Source: Tenericutes bacterium HGW-Tenericutes-2
GTDB taxonomy: Bacteria > Bacillota_I > Bacilli_A > Acholeplasmatales > Acholeplasmataceae
DNA: 64,000 nt
NCBI GenBank assembly: GCA_002839095.1
Contig: PGXL01000006.1
Location: forward strand, 62,001-126,000
Direction of reading: 5' to 3'
Part shown: piece by piece, positions 22,352-36,354 of the stretch
Layout: every line of letters begins with the position of its first letter
Numbering within the stretch: the stretch's first letter is position 1
Position numbers and translations under genes: made by a program
The notes under the pieces: model-generated
Told to the model about the DNA's origin: nothing
Databases searched by the model: none
The model's input: only the letters and a program-made list of their open reading frames with translations

Positions 22352-22380
22352 GAGCGGGAATCTGGACTGCTATGAAAAAG

Positions 22381-22496
22381 TGGGACACATAGGTACCACC
22401 TAAATAAAAGATTATAATATAATCATACAAAGGAGCTGAAACCATGATTAATCAGTACAGTGTAGACTTCAAATTGAATTTGCATTGAAAGAATCA
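22381..22496 (+). mobile_element. Insertion-sequence scar, left end plus start of IS3-like orfA
   Basis: TGGGACACATAGGTACCACC at 22381-22400 resembles a transposon end. It is followed by a promoter-like TATAAT region and GGAGCTGAAACC before an ATG at 22444. The frame gives 'MINQYSVDFKLNLH' and then a stop. The opening matches IS3/IS150-family OrfA proteins, which begin with '(Y/F)SxEFKLKxV'. The remainder of the transposase is missing, so the element is a dead fragment. Confidence 0.5.
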
Positions 22497-22566: not shown

Positions 22567-22992
22567 ATGAATGATTTTGATGAAATAAACAAACTATTTA
22601 TAGAGATTTCTAACACATGTTTTGAAAAGTATTTAAAACCGCAGATAATTCACATTGAATTAGGAAAGATTGAACTTAAAATGAGTGTTTTGGCAGAACA
22701 TTCAAATGTTGTTGGAAGAGTTCATGGTGGTGTTTTTGCCAGTTTTGCCGATATCGCTATGGGTGTTGCTTGTTGGACGCACGAAAAAAAAGCAGTTACG
22801 TCAGATATGAATCTAACGTTCATTCGGAACGTACCTGTAGTTGACGAAATTTATGCAACTGCCACAGTCATCAGTAATGGTCGGCAGTTGATGCGAACAA
22901 GATGTGAGATTAGAGGTTCTGATAGTAAATTACTAGTTAGTGCAACGGGAACATACTTTGTATTAAGCGAGACAGAAAAATCTTTTTTCTAG
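22567..22992 (+). CDS. Hotdog-fold thioesterase, PaaI family
   Basis: A 141-residue acyl-CoA thioesterase with the family signature 'GRVHGGVFASFADIAMGVAC' (about residues 51-70), where His-Gly-Gly begins the catalytic helix. It is followed by the strand 'AVTSDMNLTFIRNVPV'. Members hydrolyse small acyl-CoA or aryl-CoA thioesters as homotetramers in the cytosol. AGGAGG lies 8 bases before the ATG. It stands between an insertion-sequence scar and an unusual repeat array, so it is probably transcribed alone. Confidence 0.88.
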   Translation: MNDFDEINKLFIEISNTCFEKYLKPQIIHIELGKIELKMSVLAEHSNVVGRVHGGVFASFADIAMGVACWTHEKKAVTSDMNLTFIRNVPVVDEIYATATVISNGRQLMRTRCEIRGSDSKLLVSATGTYFVLSETEKSFF

Positions 22993-23059
22993 TTTTTAGA
23001 ATATTGGATTGGTATGGTTTATGAACAGTGGTCAATGATTTCATATGCATAGAAATAGA

Positions 23060-23131
23060 AGGGGTGCGTAACTTTTAGCAGGGGTGCGTAAAAATCACTA
23101 GGGGTGCGTAAATTTTGATAGGGGTGCGTAA
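23060..23131. repeat. Four 12-bp direct repeats at an exact 20-bp period
   Basis: AGGGGTGCGTAA (or AGGGGTGCGTAA with its last base varying little) starts at 23060, 23080, 23100 and 23120. The 8 bases between copies differ in sequence but not in length (CTTTTAGC, AAATCACT, ATTTTGAT). The core is G-rich in very AT-rich DNA. The array lies in the 307-bp gap between the thioesterase stop and the GNAT gene. A spacing of two helical turns puts all copies on one face of DNA, as in iterons or a multimeric regulator site. Confidence 0.95.
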
Positions 23132-23299
23132 TTGTATCAAAATAGGTCATGCAACACAGTAGAGAAAATGAGACTTGAACACTCATATTTTAAATTGATA
23201 TATTAGATTTGCTACTAAAGTTTGTTAGAATTAATGTATAATACAAGAATATATATATGAAGGATTCTAATTGTCCATATTAAAGAAAAGGAACTCATT

Positions 23300-30668: not shown

Positions 30669-30711
30669 CAAAAAGAGTTAAAGCAACGAAAAAAAGTAAT
30701 CGTATACCTTA

Positions 30712-30818
30712 GTTTTCTTCTCCCATCCAGACTTTACTGTCGGTGTAGGAATTGAACCTACTCAGCTTGCGCTCGCGGACTATACCGCCGGTCGGGAATT
30801 ACACCCTGCCCTGAAGAA
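30712..30818 (-). ncRNA. FMN riboswitch (RFN element)
   Basis: The minus strand carries the conserved blocks in order: GGGCAGGGTG, AATTCCCGACCGGCGGTA, AGTCCGCGAGC, a GTAGGTTCAATTCCTAC helix, CCGACAGTAAAGTCTGGATG and GGAGAAGA. This matches the RFN consensus closely, including the six-helix junction core. FMN binding should favour the terminator at 30638-30668 and switch off ribE-ribBA-ribH. Confidence 0.97.
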
Positions 30819-30835
30819 TATTAAATTACGCAACT

Positions 30836-35148: not shown

Positions 35149-36354
35149 ATGTCAAAGGTATATATCGTCTCTGCAAAGAGAACTGCAATTGGTAGTTTCC
35201 TAGGATCACTATCTAGTCTATCACCAGCAGAATTTGGGGCAAAAGTTGTAAAAAACATCGTAGAAGAAACCAAAATAAATCCAAATCTTATTGATGAAGT
35301 TATATCAGGTAACATTTTACCAGCAGGCCAAGGTCAAGGAATTGGAAGACAGGTTGCACTGCGTGCAGGTCTACCCTATGAAATTCCTGGATACGCAGTC
35401 AATATGGTTTGTGGCTCTGGTATGAAAGCAATCATGGATGGTTATTTAAAGATTAAAGCTGGTTGGGCAAATGTCATTATCGCTGGTGGAACAGAATCAA
35501 TGAGTCAAGCTCCACATTTAATTCCTTCTAAGGGTAGAAGCGGATATAAGATGGGTAATCTTGAAGTTATTGACCATATGATCTACGATGCATTAATTGA
35601 TGCTTATGATGGAATTCACATGGGTGTTACTGCAGAAAATATTGCATCAAAGCATTCAATTTCAAGAGAAGAACAAGATGCTTTTGCATATAACTCTCAA
35701 ATAAAAGCAATCCAATCTGTAGATAATGGTAGATTTGATGATGAAATCGTTGGATTGGAAGTAAAAATAGGTAAAGAAGTTGTTCTATTCAATAAGGATG
35801 AGTATCCGAACCGTAAAACAACATTAGAAAAGCTTTCAACCTTAAAGCCAGCATTTCAAAAGGATGGTAGTGTAACAGCAGGTAACGCATCAGGTATTAA
35901 TGATGGTGCAGCCTATGTGATGCTAGCAAGCGAAGAAGCCATTAAAAAATATAATTTAACACCACTTGTTGAAATTATTTCAGTTGATCAAGCTGGAGTT
36001 GATCCGAAGGTCATGGGTTTAGGACCTGTAGGAGCTATTAAAAATGTTTTAACCCGTGCCGATTTAAAACTGAGTGATATTGATTTACTTGAGTTAAATG
36101 AAGCATTTGCTGCACAAAGCATTGGTGTTGTCAAAGAAATCAGTCAAGATTTAAATGAATCCTATGATTTGATAATGGAGAGAACAAACGTCAATGGTGG
36201 AGCAATCGCCTTAGGACATCCTGTAGGAGCTAGCGGTGCACGTATTGTTGTAACATTGATTCATGAGCTTAAAAAGAGAAATCAAGAACTTGGTCTCGCT
36301 TCCCTATGTATAGGTGGCGGTATGGGTACTGCGATTATCGTTAGAAATGTTTAA
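35149..36354 (+). CDS. atoB: Acetyl-CoA acetyltransferase (thiolase)
   Basis: A 401-residue thiolase. The acyl-accepting cysteine is in 'NMVCGSGMKA' (about residue 87), with 'GGTESMSQAPHL', the His of 'NGGAIALGHPVGASGARI' (about 350) and the second cysteine in 'SLCIGGGMG' (about 380). It cleaves acetoacetyl-CoA into two acetyl-CoA, or runs in reverse. TGGAGG stands 6 bases before the ATG at 35149; the ATG at 35137 overlaps that site and is unlikely. It is the last gene of the operon and turns acetoacetate carbon into acetyl-CoA. Confidence 0.95.
   Translation: MSKVYIVSAKRTAIGSFLGSLSSLSPAEFGAKVVKNIVEETKINPNLIDEVISGNILPAGQGQGIGRQVALRAGLPYEIPGYAVNMVCGSGMKAIMDGYLKIKAGWANVIIAGGTESMSQAPHLIPSKGRSGYKMGNLEVIDHMIYDALIDAYDGIHMGVTAENIASKHSISREEQDAFAYNSQIKAIQSVDNGRFDDEIVGLEVKIGKEVVLFNKDEYPNRKTTLEKLSTLKPAFQKDGSVTAGNASGINDGAAYVMLASEEAIKKYNLTPLVEIISVDQAGVDPKVMGLGPVGAIKNVLTRADLKLSDIDLLELNEAFAAQSIGVVKEISQDLNESYDLIMERTNVNGGAIALGHPVGASGARIVVTLIHELKKRNQELGLASLCIGGGMGTAIIVRNV

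Follow-up and report, generated by a model that had tools for sequence, protein, structure and literature searches.

Which role does an array of four identical repeats, set at a fixed period between a thioesterase and a GNAT gene, play in this genome, and to which of its two neighbours does it belong? In the stretch of 64,000 nucleotides that was analysed (the window), AGGGGTGCGTAA starts at positions 23060, 23080, 23100 and 23120 with a period of 20 bp and with all four copies exact, which confirms the four 12-bp repeats reported in the initial annotation. A scan of the window identified AGGGGTGCGTAA as the sole 12-mer with four copies at one fixed period of 13 to 60 bp, and TRF recovers the same array. 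On one strand of the window, 0.0014 copies of AGGGGTGCGTAA would be expected; under an independent-base model, a genome of 2.3 Mb would contain such an array with a probability of approximately 2e-11. Elsewhere in this genome, a different contig harbours a second array (C3:132858-132930), supplemented by a fifth, degenerate copy, and there is a further site of the variant type GGGTGCCAA (C2:31208).

The repeats are embedded into a larger conserved site on the plus strand. While the initial annotation had set the end of the element at 23131, matches in dozens of other loci extend the conserved block to 23158, where the matches of the window site to other loci stop. Directly upstream of the repeats (23060-23131), which are proposed to be arm-type binding sites for a recombinase, a 5' module of the composition GGATTGGTATGG...CATATGCAT... 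covers 23010-23059; it is one of several module types that precede such repeats and occurs also in the loci L066, L097 and L100. The core TTGTATCAAAATAGGT (23132-23147) abuts the last repeat, as in nearly all members of the family, and is followed by a crossover block (23148-23158) with five variable bases, here CATGC, that resemble a coupling sequence, and the conserved AACMCA, here AACACA, as the 3' end of the site. The subsequent stretch (23159-23299, plus strand) lies outside of the site as the start of the neighbouring segment, the leader of the GNAT gene; its sequence GAGAAAATGAGACTTGAAC resembles sequence beside other sites, namely the upstream modules of L144 and L104 and the DNA after the core of L145. 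As a whole, positions 23010-23158 share 83% identity with a site that, in a second genome of the genus, follows a different gene.

Side-by-side reading of the family members delineates a block of approximately 100 bp that consists of one to five GGGTGCGTAA repeats, (AA)TTGTATYAAAATAGGT, five variable bases and AACMCA, with the repeat variants GGGTGCTAA and GGGTGTAAA taking the same role in other sites. The exact period of 20 bp initially noted holds in the window but not across the family, where 119 of 213 spacings measure 20 bp and 78 measure 21 bp, with other values being rare. Equally, the 8-bp gaps, described as differing in sequence, are not free, because gap words, for example ATTYTGMTA, AAATCACTA and CTTTTAGCA, reappear in other genomes at an unchanged distance from the core. 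The single-stranded fold of the window site, the one site folded, is not unusual (z -0.6 and -1.5). As a separate observation, a repeated element of approximately 300 bp ending in AATGACAAGAC recurs in the vicinity of arrays in Tenericutes bacterium MO-XQ and Mycoplasmatota zrk7 (L137 5206-5543; L138 4589-4926 and 7269-7643; L140 8307-8643; L139 11431-11737), and sequence similar to it constitutes the 5' module of some sites.

The family is by no means restricted to the window. In total 122 sites were collected, mostly from mollicutes. A search for two repeats with a variable gap detected arrays spaced by 20 or 21 bp in 11 of 61 relatives, in two families, so that the chance local duplication considered at the outset is not upheld; nor is the array a local oddity, and the same site follows more than 100 unrelated genes in free-living mollicutes and relatives. 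Scanning of GTDB genomes with the last repeat and the core retrieved 67 stretches, mostly from Acholeplasmataceae, Izemoplasmatales and other mollicutes; among the carriers are Peloplasma aerotolerans and, with complete genomes, MO-XQ and zrk7. Most carriers are draft genomes or MAGs, the contigs of which often end at these repeats. A few stretches derive from MAGs that are labelled as Spirochaetales, Cytophagales or Clostridia and may have been mis-binned. Within the order, the core with the crossover block is present in 33 of 150 genomes and in 10 of 28 genera (a reversed control pattern gave no match in the same 150 genomes), and it was not detected in the sampled genomes of family f3 and of the small-genome genus g7. 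Among the viral contigs, phages and plasmids searched, the site occurs only on the plasmid of MO-XQ itself and on three viral contigs.

The position of the site relative to genes is highly regular. With mechanically called open reading frames, 93 of 106 sites possess a reading frame close upstream, which is co-directional in 83 of these 93, and the median distance from its stop codon to the first repeat is 108 bp. Wherever a locus contains two or more sites, 0.1 to 11 kb apart, these point in one orientation (24 of 24 loci; 31 of 31 adjacent pairs). In some complete genomes the orientation relative to replication looked uniform as well, on which no claim is based. The cargo, on the other hand, is diverse, as 80 mutually unrelated cassette genes match 88 Pfam families, the commonest of which, HTH_3, is found in five; a transposase or recombinase does not recur among the families of upstream and neighbouring genes. 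On the 3' side, unrelated genes, tRNAs or nothing follow the site in other genomes. The window array belongs with the upstream gene for a hotdog thioesterase of 141 amino acids (22567-22992, plus strand; PF03061, Pfam 4HBT, E=8e-16), while the GNAT gene, not syntenic with the relative compared, is the next segment. Directly 5' of the thioesterase unit, at 22360-22480, lies a remnant that resembles the start of an IS3-type orfA (MINQYSVDFKLN; compare L137 6276-6596). Elsewhere in the window, an FMN riboswitch was detected on the minus strand (30711-30822; Rfam RF00050, 115 bits), and ARAGORN called a tRNA-Phe on the plus strand (35711-35803), which at 93 nt is longer than usual and may be a mis-call.

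Comparison of gene-plus-site units among genomes reveals where such units end. Units are 88 to 99.8% identical across genomes while their neighbours differ, and where the flanks differ, identity is lost at +0 to +2 or at +11 to +14 past the core. One unit present in L073, L084 and L103 is 99.7 to 99.8% identical up to +2 (L073/L103 up to +12); all three copies read TTGTATTAAAATAGGTCA, then TGC, CCC or GGT, then AACMCA, beyond which the DNA is unrelated or only loosely similar. Identity ends at +11 for L136/L193 (99.7%) and for L138 versus L139/L142 (99.2%), and at 0 for L136/L140 (93.8%). Among the near-identical copies (99.2 to 99.8%), all breaks fall into the last 0 to 12 bp of the block and none within array or core, and the five variable bases between TAGGT and AACMCA differ among copies of one unit. 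The older pair L081/L137 (90%) is an exception, as its break is located at the first repeat, where the repeat type changes from GGGTGCG to GGGTGCT.

Furthermore, whole series of units differ at a common chromosomal place. MO-XQ (1322-1355 kb) and the genomes G101 and G096 have chromosomal flanks in common with 68 to 84% DNA identity, the right flank being seen in MO-XQ and G096 only, as the array of G101 extends past the DNA examined. Between these flanks each of the three genomes carries a different series of units, every one of which ends in the site, and the units held in common are, with 88 to 97.5% identity, more similar than the flanks. One small gene pair, which includes a MazE-type antitoxin, is shared by the arrays of G101 and G096. 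A metal-ATPase unit of 3.5 kb, placed differently in the chromosomes of MO-XQ and G101, is 98% identical overall and 99.7% identical over the 1.5 kb beside the site, up to +11 past the core. Units of MO-XQ and zrk7 reach 99.7% identity versus 70% at their Xer gene, and units are carried on the MO-XQ plasmid as well. This combination of a hot spot and transfer is the pattern of a cassette array. Separately, a region of approximately 8 kb that encodes metal-efflux ATPase and ArsR proteins has 99.7% identity in MO-XQ and zrk7 and is present on the MO-XQ plasmid too (L137 8071-16240; L142 14594-5061; L139 4348-11740); it is a recent transfer between distantly related bacteria.

Among the options listed initially, that of a recombination site is supported. 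With a probability of roughly two in three, the array is considered to be the portion of a 3' attachment site to which a recombinase binds, the site being that of mobile gene cassettes with an integron-like mode of action. A cassette would consist of one gene or a short operon and its site, composed of the 5' module, one to five repeats at two helical turns, the core TTGTATYAAAATAGGT, five variable bases and AACMCA. A recombinase supplied in trans would bind the core and, as arm-type sites on one face of the DNA, the repeats, and would join the core of one cassette to the nnnAACMCA of the next segment, so that chromosomal hot spots and plasmids could acquire cassettes, lose them and stack them head to tail. 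The cassette of the window would then comprise the thioesterase gene and the site up to 23158. A circular cassette or an empty site was not seen among the loci analysed, and none of the recombinases examined could be linked to the sites; both points, like the ordinary fold of the window site, count against this model.

The left end of the units is less clearly defined. A second iterated motif, TTACACGATT, is found with a 20-bp period on the downstream side of many sites, at a distance of 150 to 300 bp, where the next unit starts (for example L139 12077-12126, L136 17193-17262 and L145 1282-1331), and in several units an inverted copy of the core, ACCTATTTTGATACAA, precedes these repeats at the left. 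The complement of the motif, AATCGTGTAA, has G(Y)GTAA in common with the repeat of the site. The TTACACGATT family may represent a left recombinase-binding end. Some shared units start exactly at the outermost TTACACGATT copy and some next to the previous core; the left boundaries are thus less uniform than the 3' boundaries, equally a point against the cassette model, and the window unit does not display a clear left array. In addition, mixed arrays with a period of approximately 31 bp, in which GGGTGCTAA alternates with TTACACGATT, combine right-end and left-end repeats of the main family within one unit (L007 884-956 and 1838-1907; L074 4470-4539; L096 6240-6331). Those of L007 end in TTGTATTAAACCC and not in the usual core; the mixed arrays possibly constitute a second class of site.

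Which enzyme would act on these sites was addressed by a census of recombinases and transposases. The integron integrase (intI, TIGR02249) is absent above cut-off from all 37 array-bearing genomes, with the matches below cut-off being ordinary Xer-type enzymes. The C-terminal domain of Mu-type transposases (Mu-transpos_C, PF09299; Tn7/Tn5053/Mu, TnsB/TniA-type) is missing in 39 of 40 array genomes and the IS21 transposase IstA (NF033546) in the window's genome, the one genome tested. Two Xer-like recombinases are encoded in nearly every genome censused, and most array-bearing genomes possess further tyrosine recombinases of approximately 320 amino acids, mostly with no arrays within 5 to 10 kb around them; the array-bearing genomes G063 and G071 contain the two Xer-like enzymes and nothing further. 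The association between the count of tyrosine recombinases and the presence of arrays is only suggestive. Our guess is a tyrosine recombinase acting in trans, by analogy to Tn916, because iterated sites at two helical turns stand beside a core with a short variable overlap.

Several other candidates were discarded. Pairs of large serine recombinases beside arrays are confined to a few loci (L133, L098 and L085), and the array-adjacent gene at L133 is ordinary cargo. Multiple terminal repeats of IS21 fit neither the orientation nor the flank, IstA being lacking; Tn7/Tn5053-like ends would call for the missing transposase domain; and the core differs from the dif-like sequences of G021, G032 and G063, which disfavours modules of the Xer/dif type. 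A canonical dif-like site lies approximately 2 to 3 kb from an Xer gene in L188, L189 and L190 (genomes G063, G032 and G021), which suggests that dif adjoins its recombinase in this group. A few kb from the array cluster of G021, L219 3554-11459 encodes a Tn916-family integrase (PF02920) along with sigma-like and cI-like genes; the same region contains, as recognised by eye, a tet(M)-type ribosomal protection gene and is interrupted by IS21 copies.

Alternative readings account for part of these observations. The site could be a passive repeated element, akin to a 3' UTR or terminator, with the units being shuffled by homologous recombination between copies of approximately 100 bp and not by a dedicated enzyme. 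Copies 85 to 98% similar are indeed long and similar enough to serve as anchors, a recombinase was not found, and homologous exchange would equally account for the break of L081/L137 inside the array. Left unexplained, however, are the common orientation and the phase conservation of the repeats, and near-identical copies break in the last 0 to 12 bp of the block, whereas a spread over approximately 100 bp would be expected. Since homologous exchange via such a repeat should scatter the breaks, a site-specific reaction, which as judged from the boundaries would take place in or beside the five variable bases, is favoured and passive shuffling is considered improbable. Somewhat less probable still is that the site forms one end of non-autonomous passenger transposons resembling mobile insertion cassettes, with iterated sites for a DDE transposase in trans. 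The inverted core followed by TTACACGATT at the left of several units, and the resemblance of AATCGTGTAA to the right repeat, would suit such an element, yet neighbouring sites all share one orientation and the DNA on the 3' side invariably reads nnnAACMCA, in place of random DNA accompanied by a target duplication; orientation and downstream flank also led to a plain transposon end at the left boundary being dropped. The absence of the Mu-type domain from 39 of 40 array genomes and of the IS21 transposase from the window's genome argues in the same direction.

A function at the level of RNA, namely attenuation in the 3' UTR with the core TTGTATYAAA pairing with TTTGATACAA in a frequently following terminator, would agree with the invariable location of the site on the sense strand behind a gene and with the terminator AGGTTTGATAC..GTATCAGGCC that often comes next. 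Many sites are, however, devoid of this terminator, which moreover lies past the crossover point, its exchange being independent of that of the site, and the spacing by two helical turns and the swapping of partners are features of DNA; little likelihood is therefore left to attenuation. Next to none is granted to a multimeric operator of the GNAT gene as initially suggested: the gene starts about 150 bp past the core, but elsewhere the site has unrelated genes before it and, after it, unrelated genes, tRNAs or nothing. Against a replication iteron, which is unlikely, stand the numerous copies in a genome, all of them located behind genes, and the lack of Rep among the gene families that recur nearby; a phase-variable element finds no support. 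CRISPR had rightly been dismissed, as the repeats of 10 to 12 bp compare with approximately 24 to 40 bp in CRISPR, the gap words are common to genomes and the array-flanking reading frames encode a thioesterase and a GNAT protein. Only the recombination site is upheld. If the cassette reading is true, a second way of stacking cassettes, unrelated to integrons, in wall-less bacteria would amount to a new route of gene exchange; it would also provide a simple DNA signature for cassettes in mollicute genomes, with the crossover block as a defined place to seek the enzyme.

Several known systems resemble the proposed cassettes in part. In the insertion motif of Tn916, arms rich in T and in A enclose six bases of poor conservation (PMC12084037). 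Imperfect inverted ends and repeats adjacent to the ends as candidate arm-type sites are shared with Tn916-type elements, and the short variable stretch between conserved arms may be a counterpart of theirs; in contrast, the units here lack an integrase and the target is nnnAACMCA, and the Tn916-family integrase near one cluster only (G021) apparently belongs to a tet(M)-type element with no relation to the sites. Mobile insertion cassettes and passenger-carrying MITEs equally place a gene between recombinase-recognised ends with the enzyme encoded elsewhere, but an autonomous parent was not found here, and orientation and downstream sequence are fixed. In pdif modules, small gene modules are likewise swapped at short sites by a host recombinase, XerC/XerD, but the core here is not dif, while canonical dif-like sites stand beside the Xer gene in G021, G032 and G063.

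Integrons are the well-known stackers of single-gene cassettes by site-specific recombination. Literature searches of partial coverage returned no earlier description of integron-like systems in mollicutes, which is weak evidence of novelty. The phylum list of a review on sedentary chromosomal integrons does not include mollicutes (PMC8618304). Instead of the GTTRRRY/RYYYAAC arms and the hairpin of attC, the sites here exhibit repeats and a core with the consensus TTGTATYAAAATAGGT-n5-AACMCA, and the one site folded lacks a strong fold. Because the integron integrase and the attC signature were both looked for and neither was found in the genomes and sites analysed, the system is not an integron by membership. 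Tentatively, at somewhat less than even odds, it can be seen as a separate, integron-independent cassette system of free-living mollicutes with iterated 3' sites, a dedicated recombinase, the TTACACGATT family at the left end and arrays on chromosomes and plasmids. Like sedentary chromosomal integrons, it combines a gene or small operon with a 3' recombination site, builds arrays of one orientation at a fixed chromosomal place, carries diverse cargo including a pair of the toxin-antitoxin type and trades complete units, with the 3' edge of the site as the boundary. Of the known systems, these integrons come nearest to it in function.
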